Notes under the pieces: generated by a model
What the model saw: only the letters and a program-made list of their open reading frames with translations
Told to the model about the DNA's origin: nothing
The model's database searches: none
Position numbers and translations under genes: made by a program
In this document: positions 3,054-61,530 of the stretch, one piece after another
How the letters are laid out: every line of letters begins with the position of its first letter
How positions within the stretch are numbered: position 1 is the stretch's first letter
DNA from: Longitalea arenae
GTDB taxonomy: Bacteria > Bacteroidota > Bacteroidia > Chitinophagales > Chitinophagaceae
DNA length: 64,000 nt
NCBI RefSeq assembly: GCF_016924755.1
Contig: NZ_JAFFJX010000009.1
Coordinates: 62,001-126,000 of the forward strand
Reading direction: 5' to 3'

Positions 3054-3193
3054 AGTTACAGGTTTCGGGGGAGCAGTCGGTTACCGGTTGCAGGTCGCCA
3101 GTTACCGGTTGCCAGTTGCCGGTTACGGGTACCGGTCGCCAGTTACCAGTTGCCGTCGCCAGTTACCGGTTACCAGTTGCCGGTCGTCAGTTC
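3054..3193. repeat. GTTRCCR heptanucleotide array
   Basis: Degenerate tandem copies of a 7-bp unit, GTTACCG/GTTGCCA/GTTGCCG, fill most of the space between the divergent Crp and BNR genes. The same unit in reverse complement (YGGYAAC) makes the arrays near 5.9 and 7.9 kb. It has no coding role: the frames through it give meaningless LPV/YRL repeats. Confidence 0.9.
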
Positions 3194-3246
3194 AAATGCG
3201 ACCGGTTCTGTTTCAACCTTATGAAGTTTTCGATTATCTTGGCGTT

Positions 3247-4548
3247 ATGTACAAATTATTCACCGCGCTCTTATTAATAGGGAGTGCAGCAACGATTGCC
3301 CAAACAAAGGTGCGCATTACAACCGCCGGAAAAGGCTGGGCCGCCAATTCCGTCAATGCCGTTATTTTCCGCCACAATTCCCTCACCAGCTTTAACAATA
3401 CCCAGTACATCGCATATTATGATTCCGCCCAACGCCTGGTGATCGGCCAACGGGCAATCGGTTCATCACGGTGGACCTTGCAAACCTCCCCCTATACCGG
3501 CAAGGCCACCGATGCGCATAATACCATCAGCATTATTGCCGACGGCGAAGGTTACCTGCATGTATCGTGGGATCACCATAACAATGAATTACGATATGCC
3601 CGCAGTGTGCGTGCCGGCTCTTTGGAGCTGACAAATAAACTGCCTATGACCGGCAGTAAAGAGACCAAGGTCACCTACCCCGAGTTTTACCGTTTACCCA
3701 ATGGCAATCTTCTGTTCCTGTATCGCGATGGCGGCAGTGGCAATGGCAACCTCATGCTGAACCATTATGACACCAAAACCAAAAAATGGACCCAACTGCA
3801 GGATGGCTGGATCAATGGCGAAGGCCAGCGTAGTCCGTACTGGCAAATGGCAATAGATAAAGCAGGCACCATACATATCTCCTGGGTATGGCGCGAGAGC
3901 CCCGATGTAGCATCCAATCATGATATGATGTATGCCCGGTCGAAAGATGGCGGCCGCAGCTGGGAAAAAAGTACGGGGGAGAAATATGCTTTACCCATTA
4001 CGGCGGCTACCGCAGAATATGCCTGCCGCATCCCGCAGCACAGTGAATTGATCAACTCAACCTCTATGAGCACGGATGATGCCGGTCATCCCTATATCGC
4101 CAGCTACTGGCGCGATTCAACCAGTACCATTCCGCAGTACCGGCTGGTATATCACGACGGACAGCAATGGCGCACGCAACAAATATCGCAGCGCAGGACG
4201 CCCTTTTCCTTATCGGGCGGCGGCACGAAACGCATTCCGATATCACGCCCGCAGATCCTGGTTGCCAGTAAAAAGGGCCTTGTACAGGGCCTGCTCGTAT
4301 ACCGGGATATTGAGCGGAAAGAAAAAGCAAGTGTGGCCTATTGTGCTGATATAACGAAAGGGCAATGGCAGGTAAAAGATCTCACCACTTTCCCTGTTGG
4401 CTTATGGGAGCCCAGTTATGACAAAGAGATCTGGCAAAAGCGGCAGGTCTTGCATTTATTCATTGAGCGGGTGGAACAGGGTGATGGAGAAACCACCAGG
4501 GCTATTCCACCGCAGCCTGTGCAGGTGCTGGAATGGTCAATGAGATAA
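3247..4548 (+). CDS. Secreted BNR-repeat (BNR_4 type) protein
   Basis: 433 residues from ATG 3247. The frame stays open upstream through the repeat array, but that extension is nonsense, whereas this ATG opens a signal peptide 'MYKLFTALLLIGSAATIAQ'. The mature part is a predicted beta-propeller rich in 'SxDxGxxW' style turns ('ARSKDGGRSWEKS', 'SWDHHNNELRYARS', 'SWVWRESPDVASNHDMMYARS'). BNR_4 proteins are often attached to polysaccharide lyase or sialidase-like enzymes, so a carbohydrate-active exoenzyme or lectin is likely. The substrate is unknown and no SusCD pair is near. The stop codon lies at the edge of a TGATAATK array. Confidence 0.8.
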   Translation: MYKLFTALLLIGSAATIAQTKVRITTAGKGWAANSVNAVIFRHNSLTSFNNTQYIAYYDSAQRLVIGQRAIGSSRWTLQTSPYTGKATDAHNTISIIADGEGYLHVSWDHHNNELRYARSVRAGSLELTNKLPMTGSKETKVTYPEFYRLPNGNLLFLYRDGGSGNGNLMLNHYDTKTKKWTQLQDGWINGEGQRSPYWQMAIDKAGTIHISWVWRESPDVASNHDMMYARSKDGGRSWEKSTGEKYALPITAATAEYACRIPQHSELINSTSMSTDDAGHPYIASYWRDSTSTIPQYRLVYHDGQQWRTQQISQRRTPFSLSGGGTKRIPISRPQILVASKKGLVQGLLVYRDIERKEKASVAYCADITKGQWQVKDLTTFPVGLWEPSYDKEIWQKRQVLHLFIERVEQGDGETTRAIPPQPVQVLEWSMR

Positions 4549-4696
4549 TGTGATAATTTGATAATGTGATAATTTGATAATGTGATAATGAAATGTAATG
4601 TGATAATGAAATGCAATGGGTTAATTTATCAATGTGATAATTGGGACAAGTTTTGAAATGAAACGCAATGTGATAATCGGGGTAAGTTGTGATAAT
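4546..4696 (+). repeat. TGATAATK octamer array
   Basis: About a dozen copies of TGATAATG/TGATAATT, with drifted copies such as AAATGCAATG, begin at the TAA of the BNR gene and continue for about 150 bp. The unit recurs near 40.1, 40.2 and 42.9 kb. An 8-bp period containing TGA and TAA puts stops in every forward frame. Confidence 0.88.
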
Positions 4697-4823
4697 ACAG
4701 GTTCCCGGGTGGCTGGCTTGGTTTAATCCATTAATTGTAGCGTTGGTTCAGGGTATCTATGTAGTTCTTATTGTTTGAGCATGAGCAGGACAATGAAGAT
4801 AAGAGCTGCTTCGTTAATTGGCC

Positions 4824-5084
4824 ATGATCGAACGCCTTACATCATTATTCAAAAATTACCTGTGGGAATTTCATTGCTGGTCGACCCAGGTGCCCATGGA
4901 TACAAGTTTGGAAGAAATTAAAAGGCAATTGCCTGCATATATTTCTGTTGACTGGCAGCGCCCCGAACAGTTCGGACAAGGATTATTATACCCGGTGACG
5001 CGGATAAAAGGCCACAGGATGAAGCGCAGGCAATATATAGGTTTTGTTGAAGGCGCCTATTGCGGCTGCACATTGATGAGCTGA
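4824..5084 (+). CDS. Small hypothetical protein, 86 aa
   Basis: Frame from ATG 4824 (a TTG six bases upstream is also in frame). Not recognised. It has an amphipathic start ('MIERLTSLFKNYLWEFHCW'), a basic stretch 'KGHRMKRRQYIGF' and two cysteines near the C terminus. It ends in 'TLMS', not Gly-Gly, so it is not the sulfur-carrier partner expected for the downstream E1-like protein. A strong terminator 110 bp downstream supports its being transcribed. Codon use looks ordinary for the window. Confidence 0.45.
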   Translation: MIERLTSLFKNYLWEFHCWSTQVPMDTSLEEIKRQLPAYISVDWQRPEQFGQGLLYPVTRIKGHRMKRRQYIGFVEGAYCGCTLMS

Positions 5085-5196
5085 CCGCTAACGGGTTACC
5101 ACTCATTTGCTTACACGTGCAGTTTAGGTGCTAAGAATGCCCTGTTCGTTTAACCGTTTTTTCTCCGTACATTTAATATACATACCATACATAGTT

Positions 5197-5226
5197 AAAG
5201 CTCCCCATGAAACGGGGAGCTTTTTT
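5197..5226 (+). terminator. Intrinsic terminator
   Basis: AAAGCTCCCC / GGGGAGCTTT, a 10-bp perfect stem with a 7-nt loop, is followed by six T. It ends the small-ORF transcript just before the M67 gene. Confidence 0.88.
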
Positions 5227-5280
5227 AATGTACCTTATCAGGCAGAGCAGCAGGCATATCAACAGATAAAATATTGTAAC

Positions 5281-5706
5281 ATGATCGTACTTGATAACGA
5301 TGCGCAAAAAGTTATTGTACAGGAGGCCGTCAATGCCTATCCAAACGAATGTTGCGGATTTTTATATGGGCATGAAGACAGCAATGGCCGCCGGATCATT
5401 ACCCTGGCGCGCGAAGCAAAGAACGTGATAGAAGGTGATCAACGGCGGCGTTTCGAGATCTCACCGCACGACTATCTCGAAGCGGAAAAATATGCAGAAG
5501 AAAAAGACCTTGAACTACTGGGTGTGTATCATTCTCATCCCAATTACCCCGCTATACCTTCGGAATTTGACCGCGCCGCCGCACAACCTTTCTTTTCATA
5601 CCTCATCATTTCCGTGAATGAAAAGGAGCCCGGGCCTATCCGCTCCTGGCGTTTAAATGACGACTGGCAGTTTGAAGAGGAGAACAATCATTTGATCGCT
5701 TACTGA
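5281..5706 (+). CDS. M67 family (JAMM/MPN) metallopeptidase, Mec+-like
   Basis: 141 residues from ATG 5281. An open extension to 5128 crosses the terminator and is rejected. The JAMM zinc site is complete: Glu23 in 'NECCG', His84 and His86 in 'YHSHP', then Ser94 and Asp97 in 'PSEFD'. Small stand-alone bacterial JAMM proteins remove cysteine or other groups from the C terminus of ubiquitin-like sulfur carriers, as Mec+ does for CysO-Cys. The next gene encodes an E1-like/rhodanese protein, which fits that pathway. No sulfur-carrier gene is visible here, so the physiological substrate is open. Confidence 0.85.
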   Translation: MIVLDNDAQKVIVQEAVNAYPNECCGFLYGHEDSNGRRIITLAREAKNVIEGDQRRRFEISPHDYLEAEKYAEEKDLELLGVYHSHPNYPAIPSEFDRAAAQPFFSYLIISVNEKEPGPIRSWRLNDDWQFEEENNHLIAY

Positions 5707-5810
5707 TAAGTTGACAGCTTGATAGAGTTGACAGCTTGCTGCTGTTCACAGGTTGAAAAAGTTGACAGGCTGGTAGAGTTGCTAGGTTGATAAAGTGGCG
5801 GGTTGATTTT
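5704..5810 (+). repeat. GTTGACAG-type degenerate array
   Basis: Drifted copies of 'GTTGACAGCTTGATAGA' begin at the M67 stop codon. They run into a short unique stretch (5811-5873) and then the YGGYAAC heptamer array. Confidence 0.65.
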
Positions 5811-5874
5811 GATTGGAATTGACGACATTCGCAGAGGGCAATTGAGGCCATTGAGCACTACAATAAACAGAGTG

Positions 5875-6097
5875 AACCGGCACCCGGCACCCGGTAACCG
5901 GCACCCGGTAACTGGCAACCGATGACTGGTAACTGGTGACTGGTAAACGGCAACCGGCACCCGGTAACCGGCAACTGGCAACGGGAATCTGGCACCCGGC
6001 AACCGGCACCCGGTAACCGGCAACTGGCAACGGGAATCTGGCACCCGGCAACCGGCACCCGGTAACTGGTAACCGGCAACTGGCAACCGGTCAACCG
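5875..6097 (+). repeat. YGGYAMC heptamer array with exact 49-bp duplication
   Basis: About thirty heptamers of the form CGGTAAC, TGGTAAC, CGGCAAC and CGGCACC. A 49-bp block (seven units) at 5951-5999 is repeated exactly at 6000-6048, with a third partial start at 6049, which indicates recent higher-order expansion. It separates the M67 and MoeB-like genes. Confidence 0.93.
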
Positions 6098-6124
6098 CAG
6101 CCCTGCAACTTTAACAGATCAAGC

Positions 6125-7282
6125 ATGAGTACGCAAATAAGTTTTTCCAAAGAAGAACTCGCCCGGTATAACCGGCACATTATAATACCCGAATTCGGAC
6201 TGGCCGCACAGGAAAAATTAAAAGCAGCCAAAGTGCTGGTAGTTGGTTCAGGCGGCCTGGGCAGTCCGGTCTTATTGTACCTGGCTGCCGCCGGTATTGG
6301 CACCATTGGCATTGTTGACTTCGATGTGGTAGACGATAGCAACCTGCAACGCCAGGTATTGTTTGGCGTACATGAGATCGGAAAACCAAAAGTGGAAGCG
6401 GCCAAAGCACGGCTGCAGGCACTGAACCCGCACATAGAGTTTATACTGTATAACACCCAACTCACTTCTCAAAACGCCCTGGACATTATAAAAGACTATG
6501 ATGTGGTGGCCGATGGCACCGATAATTTCCCCACCCGTTACCTAGTGAATGATGCCTGTGTGCTGTTGGGCAAGCCGAATATTTATGCTTCCATTTTCCA
6601 GTTCGAAGGGCAGGTGGCAGTATTTAACTACCGTTACGCCAACGGCGATATAGGGCCGAATTACCGCGATCTGTACCCAACGCCGCCACCACCCGGACTG
6701 GTGCCCAGTTGCGCCGAGGGGGGCGTATTGGGCGTATTGCCGGGCATCATCGGCAGTCTGCAGGCGCTGGAGGTCATTAAAGTGATCACCGGGGTAGGAG
6801 AGCCCCTGGCCGGTCGTTTTTATATTTTTGACGCCTTGCGTTTCGAAAGCCGCACTTTTAATATTTCCCGCCGCGATGATAATCCGCTGAATGGAAAAAA
6901 TCCAACCATCACCCAACTGATCGATTATGAACAGTTCTGCGGTGTTAAAGCAGTAGAAAAACCTGTGAAAGAGATCACACCCCGTGAGCTGACCGAATTA
7001 CAGGAGAAAGGCGTTAGTTACCAGCTGATCGATGTTCGTGAACCCTATGAGTACGACATCGTGAACATCGGCGCCGAACTGATACCGCTGGCCAGCGTGG
7101 CCGAACAGGTGGATAAGATCAATAAAAATATCCCCGTGATCCTGCATTGTAAAATGGGCGGCCGCAGCGCCAAAGCGATCCGCGAGCTTGAAGAGAAATT
7201 CGGCTTCAACAATCTCTTCAATTTAAAAGGCGGCATTCTGGCCTACATTGAAGAAGTGCAGCCGGAGTTGACAAAGTATTGA
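6125..7282 (+). CDS. E1-like adenylyltransferase/sulfurtransferase (HesA/MoeB/ThiF domain + rhodanese)
   Basis: 385 residues. The N-terminal E1-like domain carries the ATP loop GSGGLG at 41-46, 'DDSNLQRQ' and a 'PPPPGLVPSCAEGGVLGVLPG' stretch. The C-terminal rhodanese domain (about 280-380) has the active-site loop 'CKMGGRS' with Cys342. This MoeZ-like architecture activates the C-terminal Gly-Gly of a ubiquitin-like sulfur carrier and then thiocarboxylates it, for cysteine, molybdopterin or thiamine synthesis. Both zinc CxxC pairs of classical MoeB are replaced ('NYRDLYP', 'DDNPLNG'), which I believe is common in this phylum. The M67 gene upstream is the natural partner. Confidence 0.88.
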   Translation: MSTQISFSKEELARYNRHIIIPEFGLAAQEKLKAAKVLVVGSGGLGSPVLLYLAAAGIGTIGIVDFDVVDDSNLQRQVLFGVHEIGKPKVEAAKARLQALNPHIEFILYNTQLTSQNALDIIKDYDVVADGTDNFPTRYLVNDACVLLGKPNIYASIFQFEGQVAVFNYRYANGDIGPNYRDLYPTPPPPGLVPSCAEGGVLGVLPGIIGSLQALEVIKVITGVGEPLAGRFYIFDALRFESRTFNISRRDDNPLNGKNPTITQLIDYEQFCGVKAVEKPVKEITPRELTELQEKGVSYQLIDVREPYEYDIVNIGAELIPLASVAEQVDKINKNIPVILHCKMGGRSAKAIRELEEKFGFNNLFNLKGGILAYIEEVQPELTKY

Positions 7283-7350
7283 ATGGGCAATGGTGAATGG
7301 TCAATGGTGAATGCCCGCCCAACTGAACGTCGTTCGGGCCGGGTGAATGG
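7283..7350 (+). repeat. AATGGTSA/ATTGACC-family array
   Basis: Units such as AATGGTG, AATGGTC and AATGGGC run on directly from the moeB-like stop codon. The reverse complement (ATTGACC, ATTCACC, ATTGCCC) recurs near 12.9, 21.8, 33.4 and 33.5 kb. Confidence 0.85.
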
Positions 7351-7414
7351 GCAATACTGCGAGATCGTTTGCTAAACGAAGTTTCCTCATTTCATATCTG
7401 AAATGCGCATAAGT

Positions 7415-7800
7415 CGGCTTGCAATGGATCGTTTTGGGCTGTATTCCAACCTGACAAGCTGTATGATATCGTTGCAGGCTGTTTTTCCGTTAAAACGGAT
7501 AACTATAACCTCTTAACAGCTTGTTATCCCGCCATGGCAGGCTGCTTTGCTCTCCAGGTAGGTGATCACCGGAAGAAAACAGCTTTCAGCGGGGTAAAAA
7601 CAAGCTGCAACGGTCAGCATACACGCAGAAACGATCTGAAGTCAGGTTGAAATGGCAAAAATCCAGCTGTTTTGTGTCCATGGCAGCTTGAAATGGTAGA
7701 AAGTCAGCCTGAAATGATAGCAAATCAGCCAGCATGGCTGCATTACAGCTTGTTATTGTAGGAAAACCGCCTGCAATGGCAGAAATGCAAGCAGTTACAA
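7415..7800. repeat. Degenerate ~21-bp repeat region
   Basis: There is no credible gene. Successive segments begin AGCTTG/AGCCTG/GGCTG and continue with AAATGGYAGAAA-like text, e.g. near 7685-7735, with a spacing of about 20-22 bp. Copies are heavily drifted. The 21-bp spacing is three times the 7-bp unit used elsewhere, which may or may not be meaningful. Confidence 0.6.
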
Positions 7801-7839
7801 CGGTATTCCCGCGTGCAAGGCCTGGAAACAAGCAACCAG

Positions 7840-8032
7840 CGACTGATAACCGGCGACTGGTAACCCACACCCGAAACCGGCAACCGGCAACCGGCAACCG
7901 GTAACCGGTAACTGGTAACCGGGTAACCGGTAACCGGCAACTGGGAAACCGGTAACCGGTAACTGGTACCCGGCAACCGGGTAACCGGTAACCGGAAACT
8001 GGTAACCGGTAACTGGTACCCGGCAACCGGTT
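7840..8032 (+). repeat. YGGYAAC heptamer array with 50-bp-spaced block
   Basis: About 25 copies of CGGTAAC/TGGTAAC/CGGCAAC with occasional 8-bp units. A 30-bp block at 7951-7980 recurs exactly at 8001-8030. The array ends one base before the stop codon of the minus-strand gene starting at 9596. Confidence 0.92.
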
Positions 8033-8033
8033 A

Positions 8034-11361: not shown

Positions 11362-12477
11362 ATGGAAAAAAATATTGTTGTTATAGAAGGTGATGGCATA
11401 GGGCCTGAGGTAACCCGGCAGGCAGTGAAAGTATTGAATGCCATTGCCGAGCAATTCGGGCATGAATTCAACTACCGGTATTGCTTAATGGGCGCCGATG
11501 CCATTGATAAAACCGGCAGCCCCCTGCCCGACGAAACGATTGAAGCCTGCCTTAACAGTGATGGAATCTTATTTGGCGCTATTGGCCATCCTAAATACGA
11601 TAACGATCCTTCCGCCAAAGTACGCCCCGAGCAGGGCCTGCTCAAATTGCGGAAAAGCTTACAATTGTTTGCCAACATTCGTCCTGTAATCACGTACCCC
11701 TCTTTGCAACATCTGTCTCCTTTAAAAGCGCAGCAGCTCGAAGGAGTTGATTTCATAATTTTCAGGGAATTGACCGGTGGTATTTATTTCGGGAAGAAAG
11801 AGTTGAGTGAAGACGGAACCCGTGCTGCTGACGACTGCGTATATACGCGCCCGGAAATTGAACGCATCACGCACCTGGCATTTCAGTATGCCGGGAAGCG
11901 CCGCAAGAAACTGACTTTGGTTGATAAGGCCAATGTACTGGAAACATCGCGCCTGTGGCGTAAGGTTGTGCAGGAAATAGCTTCACAATATCCAGAGGTC
12001 AAGGTCGATTTCCTGTTCGTAGATAATGCCGCTATGCAGATCATCCTGAACCCCAAACAATTTGATGTGATACTCACAGAAAATATGTTCGGCGATATCA
12101 TCAGTGATGAAGCCAGTGTGATCAGCGGATCGCTGGGCCTGCTGCCATCGGCATCTATCGGGGCCGGAGTGGCGCTGTTTGAACCTATCCATGGTTCATA
12201 TCCGCAGGCAGCCGGTAAAGACATTGCCAACCCGCTGGGATGTATTCTATCAGCCGCCATGTTACTCGACCATTTTGGACTGGCCAAAGAAGCGGAAGCT
12301 GTACGGCTGGGTGTTGAGTGGACCCTGGTGAATGGTTTTGTAACGAAAGATATTGATCCGATCAATTTTTATTTCACATCAACCATTGGTGAGCTGGTAA
12401 GCGACTTTGTGGCGAACCGCATACCGGGTGGCGTGAATAAGGCGAATATAGAATTGAGAAAAAGCACGATCATTTAG
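11362..12477 (+). CDS. leuB: 3-isopropylmalate dehydrogenase
   Basis: 371 residues from ATG 11362. The frame reaches 11335, but 'MEKNIVVIEGDGIGPEV' is the normal start. It has the beta-decarboxylating dehydrogenase signature 'NMFGDIISDEASVISGSLGLLPSAS', the substrate-binding 'RPEQGLLKLRKSLQLFANIRP' helix, Lys/Asp catalytic residues in 'TLVDKANVLETSRLWR', and the NAD loop 'PIHGSYPQAAGKDIANP'. It oxidises and decarboxylates 3-isopropylmalate to 2-ketoisocaproate. The stop runs straight into a GATTTTGA array and the ilv leader follows. Confidence 0.95.
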   Translation: MEKNIVVIEGDGIGPEVTRQAVKVLNAIAEQFGHEFNYRYCLMGADAIDKTGSPLPDETIEACLNSDGILFGAIGHPKYDNDPSAKVRPEQGLLKLRKSLQLFANIRPVITYPSLQHLSPLKAQQLEGVDFIIFRELTGGIYFGKKELSEDGTRAADDCVYTRPEIERITHLAFQYAGKRRKKLTLVDKANVLETSRLWRKVVQEIASQYPEVKVDFLFVDNAAMQIILNPKQFDVILTENMFGDIISDEASVISGSLGLLPSASIGAGVALFEPIHGSYPQAAGKDIANPLGCILSAAMLLDHFGLAKEAEAVRLGVEWTLVNGFVTKDIDPINFYFTSTIGELVSDFVANRIPGGVNKANIELRKSTII

Positions 12478-12609
12478 ATTTATGATTTTGAGATTTCTGA
12501 TTTCGAGATTTTGAGATTTCTGATTTTGAGATTTTGAGATTTGGGGATTTTGAGATTTATCAGATGGTCGCCCGAAAGAAATCAGAAATCCCGCAATCAG
12601 AAATCAGAG
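12478..12609 (+). repeat. GATTTTGA/GATTTCT array
   Basis: Alternating 8-bp GATTTTGA and 7-bp GATTTCT units start immediately after the leuB stop and run to about 12556. After a short gap come reverse-complement copies (AGAAATC, TCAGAAATC) at 12578-12608, giving the region potential to fold back. Confidence 0.88.
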
Positions 12610-12680: not shown

Positions 12681-12700
12681 TGACAACACGAAGTCCTCTT

Positions 12701-12802
12701 ATGCAAAAAAGCAGCTTTAATAACATCATCTCTGTGGTTTCTGCAATAATTATTATTGTGGTGGTGGTGATTATTCCTGCAACGCATGGAGGTGGTGCTT
12801 AA
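12701..12802 (+). CDS. ilvL: ilv operon leader peptide, 33 aa, Ile/Val-rich
   Basis: The ATG at 12701 opens a 33-codon frame ending TAA at 12800. Fourteen codons are Ile or Val, including an unbroken run at residues 16-25 (four Ile, four Val, two Ile), with none for Leu. It sits 20 bp after a consensus promoter and 20 bp before a perfect terminator, upstream of ilvE-ilvD-ilvB-ilvN-ilvC. This is the layout of ribosome-mediated attenuation: stalling for charged Ile/Val tRNA would leave the downstream Gly codons free to form the antiterminator. The symbol is by analogy with enterobacterial leaders; the sequence is not homologous. Confidence 0.88.
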   Translation: MQKSSFNNIISVVSAIIIIVVVVIIPATHGGGA

Positions 12803-12856
12803 CGTATAATAATATCAGCATAAAGACCCGCCTCCAACGAGGCGGGTCTTTTTTTT
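12788..12856 (+). promoter_or_regulatory. ilv attenuator: antiterminator and terminator
   Basis: Terminator: AAGACCCGCCTC (12823-12834), CAAC loop, GAGGCGGGTCTT (12839-12850) and a T run to 12856. Antiterminator: GGAGGTGG (12788-12795, inside the last leader codons) is complementary, with one G-U, to CCGCCTCC (12828-12835), so it competes with the terminator's 5' arm. A ribosome reaching the leader stop covers GGAGGTGG and lets the terminator form; a ribosome stalled on the Ile/Val run does not. Confidence 0.88.
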
Positions 12857-12935
12857 ACCCGTGACATGGTTCAGCGGAACAGTAAATGGCAATGGCAACA
12901 CCAGTTGTCTGAGATCTGTAGATGAGTTTAAAATT

Positions 12936-12981
12936 TTATTGACCATTGCCCATTGCCCATTCACCATTGACCATTCACGAT
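12936..12981 (+). repeat. ATTGACC heptamer array
   Basis: Six clean heptamers, ATTGACC/ATTGCCC/ATTCACC, lie between the attenuator and ilvE. They are therefore inside the ilv mRNA leader. Confidence 0.9.
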
Positions 12982-13010
12982 TACAATAACCTTATTCTAA
13001 AAAATGTATA

Positions 13011-13904: not shown

Positions 13905-13968
13905 ATGGTTGGCCCTCTAACACGCGCGAAGTACAAAGTATAGCAGGAGTTTGAAGGCTCAGATAACG

Positions 13969-13998
13969 ACAAACCACAAACCATAAACCACAAACCGA
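13969..13998 (+). repeat. ACAAACC heptamer mini-array
   Basis: Four units, ACAAACC, ACAAACC, ATAAACC, ACAAACC, between ilvE and ilvD. Another sequence with the same 7-bp period. Confidence 0.8.
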
Positions 13999-18994: not shown

Positions 18995-19026
18995 ACGTGA
19001 AACGCTTAACGCAGAACGCAAAAAAG
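18993..19026 (+). repeat. AACGCTT/AACGCAG array
   Basis: Short run of AACGCTT, AACGCAG and AACGCAA units beginning at the ilvN stop. The same words reappear after ilvC. Confidence 0.7.
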
Positions 19027-20174: not shown

Positions 20175-20240
20175 TAAAGCAAAACGCTGAACGCTTAAGG
20201 CCGGTCTCATTGGATCTGGCATTAAGCGCTTAAGCGAAAA
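20170..20240 (+). repeat. AACGCTGA/TTAAGCG array after ilvC
   Basis: Units AACGCTGA, AACGCTTA, TTAAGCGC and TTAAGCGA start at the ilvC stop codon. The same text continues at 20284-20312 inside the loop of the following hairpin. Confidence 0.75.
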
Positions 20241-20243
20241 GAT

Positions 20244-20350
20244 ATTAGCCACCGTTCACAAAAAGCATTTGCGTTTACATTGTTCGCGTTAAGCGTTCGG
20301 CGTTAAGCAGCGTTTTTTGATAACTAAAACAACGGTGGCTAATTTTTTTT
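20244..20350 (+). terminator. Terminator/attenuator between ilvC and ilvA with repeat-filled loop
   Basis: ATTAGCCACCGTT (20244-20256) is perfectly complementary to AACGGTGGCTAAT (20331-20343), 13 bp, followed by eight T. The 74-nt loop contains GCGTTAAGCGTTCGGCGTTAAG-type repeat text. It would separate ilvA from the ilv operon or attenuate read-through. Confidence 0.8.
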
Positions 20351-20364
20351 TAACAGGAAATAAT

Positions 20365-21676: not shown

Positions 21677-21765
21677 GCTTGCTGAATGCTGAAGGCTGAA
21701 CGCTAACATGCAACACCGAATGCTGAAGGCTGAACGTGCAACGCTTAATTCAATGCAAAACGCTG
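21677..21765 (+). repeat. GCTGAAC/GCTGAAT/GCTGAAG array
   Basis: Two clusters of 7-bp units (GCTGAAT, GCTGAAG, GCTGAAC) with intervening TGCAAC words follow the ilvA terminator. Confidence 0.82.
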
Positions 21766-21817: not shown

Positions 21818-21886
21818 CATTGACCATTGCCAGTGCCTATTGCTCATTGCCTATTGCTTATTGCCCATTGCCCATGGCCTTCATTG
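21818..21886 (+). repeat. ATTGACC/ATTGCCC array
   Basis: Seven or more units of ATTGACC, ATTGCCC and ATTGCTC, the same family as at 12.9 kb. Confidence 0.8.
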
Positions 21887-22015: not shown

Positions 22016-22440
22016 TGATATGGTCTTTTCATCGATATTGGACACCGTCAATGTTTGCCAGGGAACGGATCAAACATTTATGGATCTATCTGGACAAATA
22101 AAAAGTTGATTGTCCTCATAGATATCGGATTGGTTTTCCCGGATATTGGAACTAACAGGTTAAAATAGTGCACAGGCCGCTGATATTGGATCTTATACAT
22201 GCTTTGGCTTTTCCCGGATATTGAACGGATCGTGTAAAAATGTACACGGGACGTTGATATTGGATAGTTGCATGTAATGGCTTTTCCCGGATATTGAAAT
22301 ACAGGGATTGGTCTTTCTTGGATTTTAAAATAATAGGCATACACAGTGCACATGGACTGATATTGGATTATACGTGAACCGGTTTTCCATGGATAATGGA
22401 AGGCCGACCCCGGTTTCCCGGGATTCTGATAACAATATTT
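22016..22440. repeat. GATATTGGAT ... TTTTCCCGGATATTG imperfect long-unit repeats
   Basis: Five or six irregularly spaced copies of a two-part core: GATATTGGAT (clear at 22121, 22182, 22256, 22359), then after 6-16 bp GGYTTTTCCCGGATATTG (clear at 22132, 22206, 22279). GTGCAC/GTACAC words precede several copies. Spacing is 61, 74 and 103 bp. It is non-coding in all frames. Confidence 0.8.
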
Positions 22441-33427: not shown

Positions 33428-33460
33428 TGGGTCAATGGCGAATGGCCAATGGTCAATATG
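33428..33460 (-). repeat. ATTGACC array, minus orientation
   Basis: Units GTCAATG, GCGAATG, GCCAATG and GTCAATA, i.e. ATTGACC family read on the ppc strand. Confidence 0.75.
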
Positions 33461-33485
33461 CTCGCGTAGCTTTTCGCATAACAAG

Positions 33486-33520
33486 AACGGGCAACCCCGT
33501 GCTGTGGTTACCCGTTTTTT
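33486..33520 (+). terminator. Intrinsic terminator
   Basis: AACGGG-c-AACC / GGTT-a-CCCGTT with six T. It lies between two ATTGACC mini-arrays and has no obvious plus-strand gene. Confidence 0.65.
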
Positions 33521-33542
33521 GTGAGCTGAGGGGCCTCGGTAA

Positions 33543-33570
33543 ATTATTGACCATTCACCATTGACCATGC
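33543..33570. repeat. ATTGACC array next to ppc stop
   Basis: ATTGACC, ATTCACC, ATTGACC, six bases from the ppc stop codon. Confidence 0.8.
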
Positions 33571-36399: not shown

Positions 36400-36483
36400 G
36401 TGGTACAATTTCAACATATCATTCTTTCATCCAGCACAGTAGCTTCCACAGCTACAACTACCACTATTACAACAACCCGTTAA
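36400..36483 (+). CDS. thrL: thr operon leader peptide, 27 aa, Thr-rich
   Basis: Frame from GTG 36400 to TAA 36481. Of 27 residues nine are Thr and three Ile, with seven of the last nine being Thr (residues 19-22 and 24-26). Threonine and isoleucine are the amino acids sensed by the enterobacterial thr leader. There is no in-frame ATG, so the GTG start is tentative. The stop codon sits in the loop of hairpin 36472-36490, and thrA begins 118 bp downstream. The symbol is by analogy only. Confidence 0.75.
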   Translation: MVQFQHIILSSSTVASTATTTTITTTR

Positions 36484-36543
36484 GGGTTGTACATTTCCAT
36501 ATTACCAACTGGGGTTTCACCTACCTTCATCCCGCAAAGCGGG
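36472..36543 (+). promoter_or_regulatory. thr leader hairpins
   Basis: Hairpin A: ACAACCC / GGGTTGT (36472-36490) encloses the leader stop. AACCC can alternatively pair with GGGGTT at 36511-36516. Hairpin B: CCCGC / GCGGG (36531-36543) is followed by AAATAAG, not a T-tract. Alternative pairings exist, but a classical intrinsic terminator is not evident, so the mechanism is open. Confidence 0.55.
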
Positions 36544-40095: not shown

Positions 40096-40249
40096 TTAGC
40101 TAATGTGCTGATGTGATAATGGAAAGGCAAAGCCGAAATTGGCTATCAACACAGAAATATCAGTTTGTATTTTCATTAGCATATTAGCAACTGATCACAA
40201 CTTGTCCCGCTCTGGGGATTATCGAATTATCACATTATCACATTGACCA
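40088..40249 (+). repeat. AGCTAATT / TGATAATG / TTATCACA arrays
   Basis: The thrB stop lies inside AGCTAATTAGCTAATG. TGCTGATG and TGATAATG follow, and the inverse forms ATTAGCA (40177-40193) and ATTATCACA (40221-40241) come just before thrC. Forward and reverse copies flank the spacer, so the mRNA could fold across it. Confidence 0.8.
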
Positions 40250-42894: not shown

Positions 42895-42935
42895 ACTGAT
42901 TTGCTAATTTGATAATTTGCTAATGTGCTAATTTG
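42895..42935. repeat. TTTGCTAAT/TTTGATAAT array
   Basis: Five units of 8-9 bp, TTTGCTAA, TTTGATAA, TGTGCTAA, in the gap between the queF-like gene and hom. Confidence 0.8.
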
Positions 42936-44953: not shown

Positions 44954-44996
44954 TTTCAATATGTTGTAATTCAGTATTGTAGAAGCTTTTATCTGA

Positions 44997-45113
44997 CTTA
45001 TCTGTCCCGCCTTCCGCGGGATGGAGTTGGCACCTTACAGCGGTTCTATGGAGAACCAGCGTGCAGGTTGTCAAGGCTTCATCGGGCCATTTCCCTCAGC
45101 CTTTCTTGATAAG
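44997..45113 (-). promoter_or_regulatory. SAM-I (S-box) riboswitch
   Basis: Minus strand, 117 nt. P1 CTTATC (45113-45108) / GATAAG (45002-44997). The conserved core is visible in order: AGAAAGGCTGAGGGA, GGCCC, TGAAGCC, GACAACC, then after a variable stem AAGGTGCCAACTCC, followed by a GC-rich P4 hairpin (CCCGCGGAAGGCGGG). The 3' strand of P1 continues into TAAGTCAGA (45000-44992), exactly complementary to TCTGACTTA (44947-44939) in the terminator loop, giving a nine-pair antiterminator. With SAM bound, P1 forms and the terminator stops transcription of metB. Confidence 0.95.
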
Positions 45114-45133
45114 CGATGTGTAAAGAACTGGTG

Positions 45134-55542: not shown

Positions 55543-55573
55543 AAAAACCCCATGTCGTTTTAGCGGCATGGGG
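55543..55573 (-). terminator. aspS terminator
   Basis: Minus strand: CCCCATGCCG / CGACATGGGG (10 bp, one G-U), 6-nt loop, then five T. About 40 bp past the aspS stop. Confidence 0.88.
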
Positions 55574-55615
55574 CGTTATATCAAATAGCGGGTAGTTGTA
55601 CTACTATCACTCGCT

Positions 55616-57442
55616 TTATTGCAAATTCAATTTTATCTGAAGTTCTTCGAACTGCTTTTGATCGATGGCGCTGGGCGCATCGAGCATAACGTCGCGGCCG
55701 CTGTTGTTTTTAGGGAAGGCAATAAAATCGCGAATGCTTTCGCTGCCGCCCAGAATAGCACACAAGCGGTCGAAGCCATAGGCTATACCACCATGGGGCG
55801 GCGCACCATATTCGAAAGCGCCCAACAGGAAGCCGAACTTGTGCATGGCCTCTTCCTGGCTCATGCCAAGGGCCGCAAACATCTTTTCCTGCAGGTCGCG
55901 CTGGAAGATACGGATAGAACCACCGCCGATTTCATTCCCATTCAACACCATATCATACGCATTGGCCTTGATGTTAGCATAGGGATGTTTCAGGTATTCG
56001 GCCGCATTTTCAATAACGGGACTGTTTTTGATCATGATCTCAATATGATCGGGCTTGGGCGAAGTGAACGGATGGTGACGGGCAACCCAACGGTTGTCTT
56101 CTTCGCTGTATTCAAACAACGGAAAGTCGAGCACCCACAATAATTTAAATTCGTCTTTTTTGCGCAGGCCCAGCCTTTCGCCCATTTCCAGGCGCAGTTC
56201 GCTCATCGCTTTGCGGGTGCGCTCTTCGGCGCCTGCCAGTATCAGCACCAGGTCGCCGGCTTTGGCGCCTGCCGCTTCGGCAATGGCTTTCAGTTTTTCT
56301 TCCGTAAAGAATTTATCTACGCTGCTTTTATAGGTACCATCGGCATTACACTTGATGAACACCAGGCCCTGCATGCCTATTTGCGGGCGTTTTACCCAAT
56401 CCGTGAGCTCATCGGTTTGTTTGCGGGTATATTCGGCACAACCTGGTACGGCAATGGCCAGTACGGTTTCTGCGTCGTTGAACACTTTAAACTCCGTGCC
56501 GGCGATCAGTTCCCCGGTAGCCGGGAGTTTGCCGTCTTTGGTAAAAGCTGATTTTATGTTCAGCAGCTGCATGCCAAAACGAATGTCGGGTTTGTCGTTC
56601 CCGTATTGCCACATAGCGTCTTCCCAGGTCATGCGTTGCACTTTCTCAGTGATCTCAAGGCCCTTTACCGCTTTGAAAATATGTTTGATCATGCCTTCAA
56701 ACATGTTCAGGATATCTTCCTGCTCAACAAAGCACATTTCACAGTCGATCTGAGTGAACTCAGGCTGGCGGTCGGCACGCAGGTCCTCATCGCGAAAACA
56801 TTTCACTACCTGGTAATAGCGGTCGTAACCGCTTACCATCAATAGTTGTTTGAAGGTTTGAGGCGATTGGGGTAAAGCGTAGAACTGCCCCGGATTCATC
56901 CGCGACGGCACCACAAAATCGCGCGCCCCTTCCGGTGTAGACTTAATCAGGAAAGGGGTTTCTATATCCATGAAATGGTTATCGTGCAGGTAATTGCGGG
57001 CGGCGCGGTTAACCGCATAGCGCAGCTCGAGGTTCTTCTTCACCAGGTTCCGGCGCAGATCGAGATAGCGGTATTTCATGCGCAGGTCATCGCCGCCATC
57101 GGTATCATCCTGGATGGTGAAAGGCGGTGTTGCCGATTTATTAAGAATTACAAAGGAAGAGATCTTGATTTCAATATCGCCGGTTGGTATATTGGGGTTT
57201 TTATTACTCCGTTCGCTCACCACACCTGTAGCCTGCAGCACAAATTCCCGGCCCAGGGGCTGCTGGTCGAGTTGATCATTCAGTTCTTCCCCCAGTAACA
57301 ACTGGGTAATGCCATAGCGGTCTCTAAGGTCAATAAAGGTGATGCTGCCAAACTTTCTGATGGTTTGTACCCAGCCGGCAAGCGTTACCTGTTGCCCGGC
57401 TTGTGCCATCCTTAATTCTCCACAGGTATGAGTTCTGTACAT
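55616..57442 (-). CDS. aspS: Aspartyl-tRNA synthetase
   Basis: 608 residues, bacterial-type. N-terminal OB fold '[42 protein letters not shown]', class II motif 2 '[22 protein letters not shown]', an inserted GAD domain (about 300-415) and motif 3 '[34 protein letters not shown]'. Start at ATG 57442 matches the family N terminus. Charges tRNA-Asp. Confidence 0.97.
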
Positions 57443-57846
57443 TCTAAATATTTTAAATAATCTGATAAACGGTTAACGATCCGGAAACCCCGTCTCCGGA
57501 ACCAAATTCACCATCCCAAACGCAAATAGCAGCTTTGCAAGCTGTTGATTGGGATTTGGAATTTGCGGCCAAAGGTAATTCAAAACGGTATGCTTTTCAT
57601 TCGTTCGGGCAATGGCAGTGATCATTTTCGCGGGACTGGATTTTCAGTTCCGTCAAAATATGCTGTTTTTTTGCTATTTAAGGGGGAAAGCGGTTTTGAA
57701 TTGTCTAACAGCCAGGTTCCTGTGTTGGGTAATTTTTATTATTTTTCGCCCCTGGATGCTATTGTTTTGCAATGCCAGAACAGGATAAAGGGAATTATTG
57801 AACAGACCGGTAACAAAAACAACAGCTCAATTACCAATATCATACA
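57443..57846. other. Gene-free spacer between aspS and mtfA-like gene
   Basis: A 110-codon frame (57545-57877) exists here but has no family-like features and overlaps the next gene. I see only probable promoters of the two divergent genes. Confidence 0.4.
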
Positions 57847-58668
57847 ATGGAGTCGGGAATTATCTTTATACTGTTAGTAGTGGTTATAGGCGGTTTCGCT
57901 TTTGCCCGGTATTTACGTACCCAGTATCTCGCACAAAGGGTAAAAGAACAGTATGAAAAGAAACACAAAAGCTACGACGCCATTCTTCAGGAATATATTC
58001 CCTATTACCGCAAACTGGATGCTTCCCTGCGCGACCGGTTCCTGAAAAGGACCCTTATTTTCCGGGCTACCAAACATTTTGAGTTCGTAGAAATGGAAGA
58101 AGAGGAACATATGTCGCTGCTGATCAGTGCAGCTGCCATACAGCTCACGTTTGGACTGGAGCATTATTTAATGGATCATTTCCACAAGATCTATATCATG
58201 AAGCGCGATTACCATTATGGTTTGTTCAATATACCCTTCCAGGGCCATGTGAGCGATGATGGGATCTATCTTTCGTGGAATAATTTTTTAAAGTCTTATG
58301 CTAATTACACCGACGGCGATAATGTGGGGTTGCATGAAATGGCGCATGCCCTCGCGTATATAAATTTTCCCGAGCATGAGCACGAAGGGGAAGATGAAGG
58401 CTTTCAGTACCGGTGGTTAAAAACTTTTACCAATACCGGCAGAGCCGTTTTCAGCCGCATGCAGGCGGGAGAAACGAACTTCCTGGGGCATTATGCAGCC
58501 ACCAATTACCAGGAATTCTGGGCGGTTTGTGTGGAGAACTTTTTTGAAAGGCCTGAAGTGTTCAAAATACAACTGCCTGACTTATATGACGCTATATGTA
58601 AATTACTCAACCAGGATATGTTAAAGCCGGGTATATTATTGCATCCTGTTTTTGAAGAATATGCGTAG
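57847..58668 (+). CDS. Membrane-anchored MtfA-like zinc peptidase (paralogue 1)
   Basis: 273 residues. One N-terminal transmembrane segment ('IIFILLVVVIGGFAFARYL'), then a soluble domain with the zinc motif HEMAH (His163, Glu164, His167) in 'NVGLHEMAHALAY' and 'NYQEFWAVCVENFFERP' supplying the third ligand. It also has 'LISAAAIQLTFGLEHYLMDHF', as in the MtfA (DUF980) family. E. coli MtfA is a cytosolic aminopeptidase-like regulator of glucose uptake via Mlc; here it is membrane-tethered, and the substrate is unknown. Confidence 0.85.
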   Translation: MESGIIFILLVVVIGGFAFARYLRTQYLAQRVKEQYEKKHKSYDAILQEYIPYYRKLDASLRDRFLKRTLIFRATKHFEFVEMEEEEHMSLLISAAAIQLTFGLEHYLMDHFHKIYIMKRDYHYGLFNIPFQGHVSDDGIYLSWNNFLKSYANYTDGDNVGLHEMAHALAYINFPEHEHEGEDEGFQYRWLKTFTNTGRAVFSRMQAGETNFLGHYAATNYQEFWAVCVENFFERPEVFKIQLPDLYDAICKLLNQDMLKPGILLHPVFEEYA

Positions 58669-58903
58669 TTAATAAACTTCTAATCACACGATACTAACAG
58701 ATATCCTAAATTTGCAGAGGGTACTTTCTTTTTTAAATATTTCTTTATACTTTGTACCCAGATAGAACCCTCTAATGATCACCACCCTTTAATTTGCCAT
58801 ATCTCCCCAAGGATCCCTGAAAACCGTTAGTAGATCCATCTTCTCTATTTGAAAACCACGTCGTTGATCTGATCCCCGAGTCATTTACGAAAAATAGAGC
58901 ATT

Positions 58904-59704
58904 ATGGAGATTTTGATCATTTTTCTGGTGGTCTTCGGTATCATTCTTCTACAGGGTCCTGTAATAAGGTGCTATAACTACCTGTACGAAAAGAGGCAGT
59001 ATAAACAATTTCTTACCCAGGAAACTTTTTATCACGCCATTGTTTCACAGAACCTGAAGTATTATAACCGGTTGAACACCGTTAACCAACACAAATTCCT
59101 GTTCAGAACTTACCTGTTCAAAAAAGCCAAAAAGTTCCATTACATAGAGGTGGAAGAATGCGCCGAAATGCCCATCCTTATCAGTGCAACGGCTGTGCAG
59201 TTGACTTTCGGATTGGATAAGTACCAGTTTAATTTTTTCAGGGATATCTATGTGCTGAAGCACGATTATCATTACGGCTTCTATTCCCGGCCTTTTGAAG
59301 GGCATGTTGACCACAGCGGCATTTATTTATCCTGGGACAAATTCATCAAAGGATTGAAAGGCCTTACGCCGAACTGCAATATGGGTTTGCACGAAATGGG
59401 GCATGCACTGGCTTATGTAAACTTCATTTCTCAAACGGAGGAAGACAAACATTTCAAAAAAGAATGGATGAATTTCTCCAAAGTGGCCCGTCCCATTTTT
59501 GAAAGCATGCGGCAGGGCGCCAAGAATTTACTCGATGAATATGCCGGCACCAATTACCAGGAGTTCTGGGCTGTAAGTGTGGAAGTATTCTTTGAGAACC
59601 CGGTTCGCATGCGGCATGATATGCCTGACCTCTACAATGCCATGATCGCTTTATTGCGGCAGGACCCGATTGGAATGTTAAACATCAATAAACTGGCTGC
59701 CTAG
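58904..59704 (+). CDS. Membrane-anchored MtfA-like zinc peptidase (paralogue 2)
   Basis: 266 residues and co-linear with the preceding gene: the same N-terminal membrane segment ('LIIFLVVFGIILLQGPV'), HEMGH with His163 and His167 at the same positions, 'NYQEFWAVSVEVFFENP', and 'LISATAVQLTFGLDKYQ'. About half of the residues match its neighbour, so this is a tandem duplication that has diverged. The 235-bp gap suggests separate promoters. All zinc ligands are kept, so both copies should be active. Confidence 0.85.
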   Translation: MEILIIFLVVFGIILLQGPVIRCYNYLYEKRQYKQFLTQETFYHAIVSQNLKYYNRLNTVNQHKFLFRTYLFKKAKKFHYIEVEECAEMPILISATAVQLTFGLDKYQFNFFRDIYVLKHDYHYGFYSRPFEGHVDHSGIYLSWDKFIKGLKGLTPNCNMGLHEMGHALAYVNFISQTEEDKHFKKEWMNFSKVARPIFESMRQGAKNLLDEYAGTNYQEFWAVSVEVFFENPVRMRHDMPDLYNAMIALLRQDPIGMLNINKLAA

Positions 59705-59816
59705 CGCACTATTTTACTTTTAGCCTGCCATTGAGGATTGTGTTTTCTATGTCGGATATTTCCCCGCCGGGGACCTATTCGACATTTTTTTGCGCAGTTT
59801 GGCCAGGCGCCCTGTA

Positions 59817-60233
59817 TCAGGAAACTTCTTCTACCGCTACTGCCTGTGGTGCTGCAGCCGTTTCTTTTTTTCTTTTTAGAGGCGAATAAATGAGGTAGTA
59901 ATAGAACAATACTACCAAACCGAGGCAAAAGGGAATAAGGCAATAGGGTTTTACCTGTTCGTCTACCTCCAGGAACTCGGCGATCATCCACATGGAGTTA
60001 GCGCTTATCCATAAGGTGATGGCTATATTATGCGTTAGCTCTGCCATTATATGCCGGGTGCGCCAGGCAATATAAATAGCAATGATGAGGGTGGGAAAGA
60101 TCATGGCAATCCCCAGCGGCTTAAGGATCAAACACCAGCAGATGTCTTTTACGAGCCAGAACAGGATATGCAAATTTTCCAGTTTGCGGAATTTGGCTGG
60201 TATAACGTACAGTTCTTTTGATTCCTGCCCCAC
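59817..60233 (-). CDS. Hypothetical membrane protein, 138 aa
   Basis: Three or four hydrophobic segments: 'NLHILFWLVKDICWCLILKPLGIAMIFPTLIIAIYIAW', 'NIAITLWISANSMWMIAEFLEV' and 'YCLIPFCLGLVVLFYYYLIY', with a basic/Ala-rich cytosolic tail. This looks like a small integral membrane protein conserved in Bacteroidota. No function recognised. It is 44 bp downstream of the FAD oxidoreductase on the same strand. Confidence 0.75.
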   Translation of the reverse strand: MGQESKELYVIPAKFRKLENLHILFWLVKDICWCLILKPLGIAMIFPTLIIAIYIAWRTRHIMAELTHNIAITLWISANSMWMIAEFLEVDEQVKPYCLIPFCLGLVVLFYYYLIYSPLKRKKETAAAPQAVAVEEVS

Positions 60234-60277
60234 TGTTTATGATTTGAGTTTTGATAATAGAAGGTGCAAAAATAAAA

Positions 60278-61333
60278 TTATTTCGATAATACGCGTTTGA
60301 ATCGCTGAATATCGGCTTCGGGTAGCAGTGGCGACTGATGCTGAAGATGTTGCACCAGTTGTGGTGCAAAAAATGGCGCCAGGGAACAGCCTTTGGTGCC
60401 CATACCGTTGAAAATGCCAATGGCCGGTTGCGTGGGATGGAAGCCGATGAATGGACGCCGTTCAATGGTGGCGGGCCGTACTGCAGCGGTATGCTCCAGC
60501 AGGCGCACCGGTGCTTTTATCCAGTGTTTTAAGGCAGCCAGGGTTTTCTCCCGGAATAATGCTGTTGGAGCATCGCTGGTAAAATCCCATTCGTAGGAAG
60601 AGCCCACCCAAAAAATATTATCCCGCCAGGGCACCCAGTTAATGCCTTTTTTAAAGATGTGCTGCCCAGGCATGTCGCCCGTTTCTACCAGTAACACCTC
60701 GCCTTTATTAGGAGCAAAGGGCAGGTTGGCAAACCAGGGATTGTTAAAGGAACCAATGCCATCGCAGAAGATGATCCGCTGGGCTGTAATGCCTTTGTAG
60801 TGGATGGTATCGGCAAGCACCTGTAATTGCGTATGATCGAATTTTTCTTCGAGCAGGTTATTACCAGCCATCAACAAGCGGCGGTATGCAGGCAGCAATT
60901 CCGGCAGGTTTACCAGGTAACAGGGGGAAATAATGCCGTAGCCAAAATCATAATTGAAATAGGTGCTCCACGCATCCGGGTCATTTGGCAGCGAGATGTA
61001 TTGGGTATCTTCTGCATAGCGTTTCTCATAGGCCAGCTTCATTTGCGGGGTTGGAAAAAAATCGATGATGTCTTTTTGCTGGATTGCCGTTAGCTGCAAC
61101 CGGCTGCCGAGTTCGGTGTATTGCTGCCAGGCAAAGGGCATCACCTCATCTATCATCCACGTTTTTACAATACGTCTGCCGGTGACCGGGTTAATAATGC
61201 CGGCGGCTACCCTGGAAGCTGTTCCCGGCCGGTTATCATCGATCACCAGGAAAGAAAAACCTGCTTTTTGTAATTCCCAGCTGAGGAATGTACCGCAGAT
61301 CCCCTGGCCGATCACTAAAAAATCAAAATGCAT
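60278..61333 (-). CDS. FAD-dependent oxidoreductase, DAO (glycine/D-amino-acid oxidase) family
   Basis: 351 residues. N-terminal FAD loop 'FLVIGQGICGTFLSWELQKAGFSFLVIDD' with 'TASRVAAGIINPVTGRRIVKTW'. The middle holds the substrate-binding sheet ('YISLPNDPDAWSTYF', 'NKGEVLLVETGDMPGQ'), and the C-terminal 'VRPATIERRPFIGFHPTQPAIGIFNGMGTKGCSLAPFFA' closes the FAD site. DAO enzymes oxidise secondary or primary amines, or modify tRNA (MnmC C-domain-like). The exact substrate is not clear. Confidence 0.85.
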   Translation of the reverse strand: MHFDFLVIGQGICGTFLSWELQKAGFSFLVIDDNRPGTASRVAAGIINPVTGRRIVKTWMIDEVMPFAWQQYTELGSRLQLTAIQQKDIIDFFPTPQMKLAYEKRYAEDTQYISLPNDPDAWSTYFNYDFGYGIISPCYLVNLPELLPAYRRLLMAGNNLLEEKFDHTQLQVLADTIHYKGITAQRIIFCDGIGSFNNPWFANLPFAPNKGEVLLVETGDMPGQHIFKKGINWVPWRDNIFWVGSSYEWDFTSDAPTALFREKTLAALKHWIKAPVRLLEHTAAVRPATIERRPFIGFHPTQPAIGIFNGMGTKGCSLAPFFAPQLVQHLQHQSPLLPEADIQRFKRVLSK

Positions 61334-61409
61334 GACGCAAATGTAAGGGAGAAGATCTATAATGACGGCTTACGCAAGGTTGAACGTTCATAGTGTAAAG
61401 CAGGGGATT

Positions 61410-61530
61410 GCAAGTTCCTGGTTGCAGGTTGCAGGGTAAAAGGTCCAGTCTCTCAGCTACAGGCTCAAAGTAATAACAGGCGCCTGAAACAAACGCACTT
61501 GTAACCTGTACCTTGTAACCTGTAACGCAT
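61410..61530. repeat. GGTTGCAG and TGTAACC heptamer copies
   Basis: GGTTGCA, GGTTGCA near 61429 and TGTAACC, TGTACCT, TGTAACC, TGTAACG at 61501-61527, separated by about 60 bp of non-repetitive DNA. Confidence 0.75.

Follow-up and report, generated by a model that had tools for sequence, protein, structure and literature searches.

Short tandemly repeated repetitive (STRR) heptamers of cyanobacteria have a 7-bp period, and the repetitive extragenic palindromic (REP) sequences, bacterial interspersed mosaic elements (BIME), and miniature inverted-repeat transposable elements (MITE) are dispersed extragenic palindromes that are scarce between divergent genes and variable in copy number among relatives. 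Heptamers with the units GGGAATC in Xanthomonas and GGGGA(C/T)T in Nostoc were described by Rehm et al. in 2015 (PMC4692102), with 70 and 75 close convergent pairs in two Xanthomonas genomes and few in Nostoc; a 2007 survey is cited there for the over-abundance of heptamers in bacterial genomes and for a polymerase-footprint hypothesis. TAACTGA heptamers were reported from Beggiatoaceae, Cyanobacteria, and five Bacteroidetes (MacGregor 2015, PMC4679880). Here we analyzed a window of 64,000 nucleotides (bases 62001–126000 of contig 39) from the genome of Longitalea arenae (7.28 Mb, 40 contigs), in which short arrays of 7- and 8-bp units lie between the genes. We propose that short dispersed palindromic elements of several families underlie many of these arrays, which would be their arms or the half-arms that survive, a reading to which we assign a probability of about 0.58.

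The Longitalea arrays resemble the Xanthomonas and Nostoc heptamers in their degenerate 7-bp units, their dispersed intergenic positions, their under-representation between divergent genes, and their strong variation in length and sequence among relatives (PMC4692102). Unlike the one G-quadruplex-forming unit type treated in that paper, they comprise about ten families, with 7- or 8-bp units and, in the families called C and D below, conserved cores. The convergent Xanthomonas pairs appear, from the units and pairs described there, to place the G-rich strand in the 5' arm, as here. The TAACTGA heptamers are likewise intergenic, have other heptamer families beside them in some Bacteroidetes, and show strain-specific differences at matching positions, but in the Beggiatoa genome they occur mostly as two to six direct copies near start codons; one indirect repeat is reported, and a palindromic element is not described in the sections of that paper covered here (PMC4679880). 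The original prediction had called several different families side by side in one Bacteroidota region unusual; heptamer arrays had already been reported in Bacteroidetes. Heptamer arrays as such, and convergent pairs in Xanthomonas, are published; what appears to be new is how many families coexist, along with the 8-bp class, the cores, and a polarity that is strict within families. The elements were undescribed among the matches listed, from mostly non-subscription literature, for intergenic heptamers, Niastella repeats, REP sequences and REP-associated tyrosine transposases (RAYT) of Bacteroidetes, and heptamer hairpins.

The arrays are real and extend well beyond the window. Tandem arrays were located by Tandem Repeats Finder (TRF), direct reading, or a period scan, and those named in the original prediction were found by TRF or direct reading where it had placed them. 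Lag autocorrelation in non-coding DNA peaked at 7, 8, 14, 15, 21, and 22 in the window as well as across 400 kb of other contigs, and coding DNA showed a 3-base rhythm alone, bearing out the predicted 7- to 8-bp period outside genes. The period scan, counting segments that scored at least 12, covered 784 kb with 525 intergenic regions (121,472 bases), the borders of which are approximate as genes were called by our own scoring of open reading frames. It gave 86 intergenic segments at period 7, 65 at period 8, 10 at period 11, 4 at period 9, 2 at period 3, 1 each at periods 5 and 10, and none at 4, 6, 12, or 13. Ten dinucleotide shuffles yielded means of 0.0 at period 7 and 0.6 at period 8, and at most 0.6 for all these periods; an equal amount of coding DNA held 3 segments at period 7 and none at period 8. 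Longer intergenic periods were mostly multiples (14, 16, 21, 24, and 28), with 11 segments also at 22 and 9 at 18. The 7-bp arrays fall within the definition of intergenic heptameric tandem repeats (7-bp units, non-coding DNA only), and the 65 8-bp arrays exceed it. Per kilobase of intergenic DNA there were 1.88 arrays in the window and, unevenly, from 0 (one 80-kb piece) to 4.5 elsewhere; the contig stretches C1 (2.75) and C8 (4.5), of 80 kb, carry a sampling bias as they were picked after pattern matches on those contigs, whereas pieces of contig C11 ranged from 0 to 2.7. An assembly artefact is unlikely because the architecture recurs in separate assemblies of congeners, including a single-contig genome of 9,033,684 bases.

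The units fall into families. A closely matching unit in another intergenic region was present for 61% of 188 arrays, as opposed to 8 to 17% in four controls in which each unit was shuffled, at a matching score of 20 of 24; a loose threshold discriminated weakly (0.97 versus 0.81–0.87), and stricter ones were adopted. Read in the sense of the 5' arm, the main families, about ten in number, are A (GTTRCCR), B (GGTSAAT), C (TGMTRATK), D (GATTTTGA), E (GTTTRTG), F (AACGCTK/AAGGCTG), H (AGTTATTA), I (CAATAGG), K (GAAGTAR), and ATRTTGA. The exact family A triple (YGGYAAC three times) had 534 matches in the genome and 8 for the reversed control, and it occurred in 9 of 10 genomes of the genus and 1 of 29 others. 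The predicted 7- to 8-bp register, shared by many unit families, was supported outside coding DNA and on several contigs. The accompanying idea of a shared period with unrelated units survived for the register alone, since units recur in families and some adjoining arrays are inverted copies of each other.

Inverted pairing is in excess. An inverted partner within the same intergenic region (up to 250 bases) was found for 50 of the 188 arrays, where 9.3 were expected from comparing the same arrays against other array-bearing regions, and such pairs occur in 31 of 117 array-bearing regions. From the L. arenae genome and eight congeners we collected 68 non-overlapping hairpins of 43 to 280 bp (median, 109), by class 30 ++, 24 +-, 9 --, and 5 -+, all with terminal inverted repeats of the MITE type. 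Their polarity is fixed within families: the 5' arms were alike in 171 related hairpin pairs and opposite in 0, a count that includes orthologous copies and is hence non-independent, and nine clusters, all polarity-consistent, contain 59 of the 68 elements. G exceeded C in the 5' arm of 56 elements, C exceeded G in 9, and 3 were equal, compared with 86 to 96 (33 equal) for 215 ordinary perfect hairpins without arrays in the same regions.

Elements C and D also share sequence outside their repeated boxes. With a family D hairpin as the BLAST query there were 110 genome matches, partial and two-strand ones included, and in many of the 26 loci fetched the arms are separated by about 20 unpaired bases that these loci share, GCTCAGGTTTGAACTTTCCGAT. 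Fifteen of the 26 align at 81% mean column identity, unpaired core included, although these were selected and oriented by a recognizable core, a choice biased toward finding the core conserved; 18 loci aligned earlier, in mixed orientation, reached 67%. In this family GATTT boxes recur every 8 bases and the 3-base linkers vary. A model built from the fifteen loci matched 10 of 10 genomes of the genus and 1 of 29 others, with 112, 115, 54, 114, 19, 21, 98, 110, 4, and 2 matches in genomes G000 to G009, respectively (at most 116 scored candidates; G008 is 61% complete, and palindromes may count on both strands). In family C, RAATA or AATAC follows 31 of the 86 arms and a looser pattern follows 43, with core adjacency seen 5 times against 0.02 expected. 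Across those 43 arms the unit next to the core differs from the following one at one position, A:G being 32:11 in the former and 12:31 in the latter (p=8e-5); a second variable position showed such dependence at p=0.007 and a third none (p=0.91). Families D and C are, like REP sequences, dispersed extragenic palindromes in many copies. The elements differ from REP, BIME, and MITE in that their arms consist of reiterated 7- or 8-bp boxes, and the 84-column consensus of family D, the family checked, is without the GTAG/CGTC tag. The original prediction had favored a common mechanism over one mobile family; the existence of about ten families agrees with this, but C and D at least resemble dispersed elements. 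The word GMTCGCGAATTTC, considered as a common loop core, was rejected, with 19 genome matches at up to one mismatch and 9 for the control. Separately, three direct copies of a half element (a family C array plus AAATACAG) lie at locus L227 and its neighbors, contig C11 about 944065-944228, which suggests recombination between half elements.

Orthologous slots can be compared because the gene order of the window is largely conserved across eight aligned congeners, with 28 to 41 orthologues apiece. The aspartokinase/homoserine dehydrogenase of the window has its nearest named relatives in Longitalea luteola, with 97% identity, Niastella sp. OAS944, with 94%, and N. populi, with 93%, which places the genome in the Chitinophagaceae. 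Both species had arrays in 148 species-pair slots, with 70 expected under independence (region length uncorrected), one species in 189, and neither in 513, a few AT-rich arrays being included. The arrays differ between related species as had been anticipated: of the 148, 62 had related units and 86 unrelated ones, random slots being related in 14.5%. Past the stop codon at 12477, that of a gene of the isopropylmalate/isocitrate dehydrogenase type, four species carry D, three K, and two C-type words, one of them having both C and K (by eye); by the same kind of inspection, the hairpin slot at 12496 to 12608 holds D in L. luteola, N. populi, and G003 and K in G009, G004, and G001. The slot at 33430 to 33566 has a B or B' (GTGAGTG) array in all 6 congeners shown (by eye), and that at 40102 to 40244 has CAATCGG, GTTGACAG/GTGAGTG, or ATTSACC arrays in other species. 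At 13965, where the window has a lone ACAAACC array, the L. luteola hairpin has both arms and N. populi retains the 5' arm; judged from this comparison the window array is probably half a hairpin, the direction of change being unpolarized.

Array density differs with the orientation of the flanking genes: it is 2.48 per kb for convergent pairs, 1.7 for tandem pairs, and 0.73 for divergent ones, and REP-type repeats are likewise scarce between divergent genes. Of 116 arrays in tandem regions, 31 begin at most 15 bases away from the upstream stop codon, and 13 come equally close, with their far end, to the downstream start. Between tandem genes, the 5'-arm word has no sense-to-antisense bias in families C (12:13) and D (5:6), and families A, B, and E lean toward the 3'-arm word in sense (8:3, 8:4, and 7:3). 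Stop codons were counted to ask if stops in all frames account for the non-triplet period; their frequency per trinucleotide was mildly raised in 5' arms (0.087, against 0.068 shuffled) and as expected in 3' arms.

The reading that best accommodates these observations invokes several REP/MITE-like palindrome families whose arms contain 7- or 8-bp boxes, together with expansion of units and remnants of half elements. The proposed layout is [U]n - loop/core - [rcU]n, U standing for a box of 7 or 8 bp in which some positions are conserved and others free. Copies would spread in trans at the DNA level through an enzyme that reads the reiterated boxes, the 7- to 8-bp register being the spacing of these putative recognition boxes, and would settle after stop codons, where insertion is tolerated. 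Loss of one arm would leave a lone array, and lengthening of arms by whole units, through recombination or slippage, would produce the long arrays as well as the higher-order repeats of 49 and 50 bp. Families C and D are most simply explained by the copying of whole elements; in the remaining families the claim is weaker.

Several results weigh against this reading. At the threshold used, 138 of the 188 arrays have no inverted partner, and direct partners are also in excess (38, with 10.2 expected), in part as interrupted arrays. In family A, TTAAGGGCCTGG beside the 3' arm was exact in 3 of 30 fetched loci and approximate in 3 more (by eye), and an all-against-all comparison of the 68 loops gave few matches, mainly of D type, most loops not being recognizably homologous. 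The hairpin at L084, in another genus, has a AGTTATTC-type unit in the polarity opposite to that of the genus. A mobilizing transposase was not identified: PF01797 (Y1_Tnp) had 2 genome matches, one of them REP_Tyr_transpos at 77.2 of 80 bits, just below cut-off. The few orthologous sites compared showed no target-site duplication, and the one clean insertion examined starts at a resident GTTGA. Some arrays appear to have grown from a resident word, as at 42899, and family differences at one slot could reflect local conversion instead of insertion.

Much of the same evidence bears on other explanations. Plain replication slippage, with a 7- to 8-bp preference set by the DNA polymerase footprint, would raise arrays independently wherever a seed exists, and it is rather unlikely to be the main explanation. 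The sharp 7/8 spectrum suits it, as do the whole-unit and 49- and 50-bp higher-order repeats, the higher mean GC of period-7 (44.5%) than of period-8 (32.5%) arrays, expected from a stability threshold, and the possible growth of the 42899 array from resident CTAATTTG, a word present in 3 of the 6 congeners, among 8, whose slot is array-free. Slippage from random seeds, one of the mechanisms originally suggested, is nevertheless contradicted as a sole cause by the recurring families, inverted pairing, fixed polarity, conserved cores, dependence of units on their position in the arm, and sharp drop from period 8 to period 9. We consider it unlikely that the arrays are selected RNA hairpins, that is, 3' untranslated stems that stabilize messages or stop transcription, their sequence drifting while the arms pair and families replacing each other at a functional slot. 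The density peak between convergent genes and the retention of an array at slots where units differ speak for such a role, but none of 14 predicted family D pairs showed two-sided change (15 sequences), and the idea that arms co-evolve as pairs was rejected, an element's own arm pairing better than other family members' arms in 56.5% of comparisons (p=0.15). TTTT follows or AAAA precedes the hairpin in 11 of the 68 elements, so that as a class they are not intrinsic terminators, single cases ending in T runs. With no compensatory change in D, arms not specially matched, and few T or A tracts, RNA function is not favored over dispersed DNA elements tolerated at 3' ends.

The original prediction had also raised a templating enzyme. 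In a telomerase-like scheme, repeats with a register of 7 to 8 nucleotides would be added to 3' ends at breaks, and end joining would then yield head-to-head arrays whose G-rich strand points at the junction. Polarity and the G excess of 5' arms fit that geometry, and a precedent exists in the bacterial reverse transcriptase (RT) DRT10, which makes tandem-repeat cDNA, with 9-nt repeats in the system described (PMC12632851). The unpaired D core and the position-dependent C units suggest copying of whole elements instead, units are heterogeneous within one array, and the five RTs above the Pfam cut-off comprise three like group II intron RTs (one above the NCBIfam cut-off), a type XIII retron RT, and Drt8; DRT10 is not among these assignments, nor is a model of that name among the models listed. 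We regard this scheme as very improbable. Also unlikely is a single strand-polar process of fixed 7- to 8-nt register that makes or recognizes all the families as well as the Xanthomonas and cyanobacterial heptamer pairs, in which a candidate trans-acting enzyme (an HUH-type recombinase, a repeat-adding polymerase, or similar) would usually leave the G-rich strand on the 5' side of the junction.

Outside the genus, 80 Chitinophagales loci around a thrA-type gene held 77 period-7 and 23 period-8 arrays, with no other period from 4 to 13 above 8; this sample was taken without a low-complexity filter and includes four loci (L031–L033 and L101) from the genus itself. With the filter on and one 144-base stretch dropped, other genera of the family (12 loci, 27 kb) had 2 period-7 arrays and no outstanding period, and other families (7 loci, 10 kb) had 1. 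Because filtered loci outside the genus show few arrays, the trait is patchy, and the 80-locus figure may overstate its spread. Other genera yielded 23 hairpins of the same build, 19 to 3 for a G-rich 5' arm with one equal. A plasmid BLAST with a family A array, low-complexity filter on, gave no match. In 250 kb sampled from plasmid A of Trichormus variabilis there were 7 period-7 arrays and 1 period-8 array, and, unlike here, a single heptamer hairpin (2 of the 8 arrays; L297:43073-43135), with a G-rich 5' arm.

The arrays of the window are listed in Table 1. The TRF array at 20282 has as its inverted partner the left arm of the 20.2-kb hairpin, an arm also recognized by direct reading.

Table 1. 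Repeat arrays and array hairpins in the window
Feature	Position	Strand	Found by
Family A (YGGYAAC / GTTRCCR) array between divergent genes	3078..3192	-	TRF, period scan
Family C (TGATAATG/TGATAATT, 8 bp) array, then GAAATG; overlaps stop codon of upstream gene (gene ends 4548)	4539..4625	+	
GTTGACAG/GTTGATAA array, 8 bp, compound period 17 bp; starts at stop codon	5704..5807	+	
Family A array, 31.7 copies of 7 bp	5875..6097	+	TRF
Family B array, 5'-arm sense (GGTSAAT), starting at stop codon	7280..7313	+	
Family A array, 50-bp higher-order repeat	7847..8031	+	TRF
Family D hairpin: GATTTTGA 5' arm, loop, AAATC-type 3' arm	12496..12608	+	
Family B array, 3'-arm sense (ATTSMCC), lone	12938..12982	+	TRF
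Family E (AYAAACC) array, matching 3' arm of two-armed L. luteola hairpin	13965..13996	+	
Family F (AACGCTT) array, short, about 3 units	19001..19020	+	Direct reading, period scan; missed by TRF
Family F hairpin (AACGCTGAACGCTTAAGGC ... GCGTTAAGCGTTCGGCGTT); 3' arm inside loop of TTAGCCACCGTT/AACGGTGGCTAA-T9 terminator	20183..20304	+	
GCTGAAC array, downstream of terminator	21680..21734	+	
Family B array, 3'-arm sense	21818..21880	+	TRF
Family B hairpin enclosing terminator-like hairpin, between convergent genes	33430..33566	+	
Family C array, 5'-arm sense, 6 bases past stop codon	39058..39104	+	
Family C hairpin	40102..40244	+	
Family C array	42899..42935	+	TRF
TTGCAGG array and inverted TGTAACC array, imperfect pair	61408..61526	+	By eye; outside the 68-element list

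Two family A arrays contain higher-order repeats by TRF, of 49 bp (7 units, 5940-6080) and 50 bp (7875-8031). Each block comprises about seven 7-bp units, which suggests that blocks were duplicated recently. The TTAGCCACCGTT ... AACGGTGGCTAA-T9 terminator (20245-20351) precedes a threonine dehydratase gene and occurs in congeners too, but only some species have an AACGCTT-type array in its loop. A 73-bp repeat (TTTTCCCGGATATTGAA...) is present in two and a bit copies at 22134-22298, and words similar to it lie near an apparent IS200-type transposase in L034 (by eye). Rfam models matched only a S-adenosylmethionine (SAM) riboswitch in the window (RF00162, 73.7 bits, 44995-45115, minus strand). 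At 12700-12870 Ile and Val codons form runs (about IIIIVVVVII) in a leader peptide, after which comes a GACCCGCCTC/GAGGCGGGTC terminator, and a class IV aminotransferase gene lies downstream. This arrangement, which the window has in common with the seven congeners shown (by eye), is likely an attenuator. A short Thr-rich frame (an ACA/ACT/ACC run ending CGTTAA; 36410-36490, by eye) upstream of the aspartokinase-homoserine dehydrogenase gene is a likely thr attenuator leader.

The over-abundance of heptamers has been noted since 2007, with the polymerase-footprint hypothesis as the sole account as cited in PMC4692102. The Longitalea elements alter the 3' ends of genes between species, and the occurrence of many families together in one genus, with one element ranging from 2 to 115 matches across ten genomes, makes the mechanism testable.

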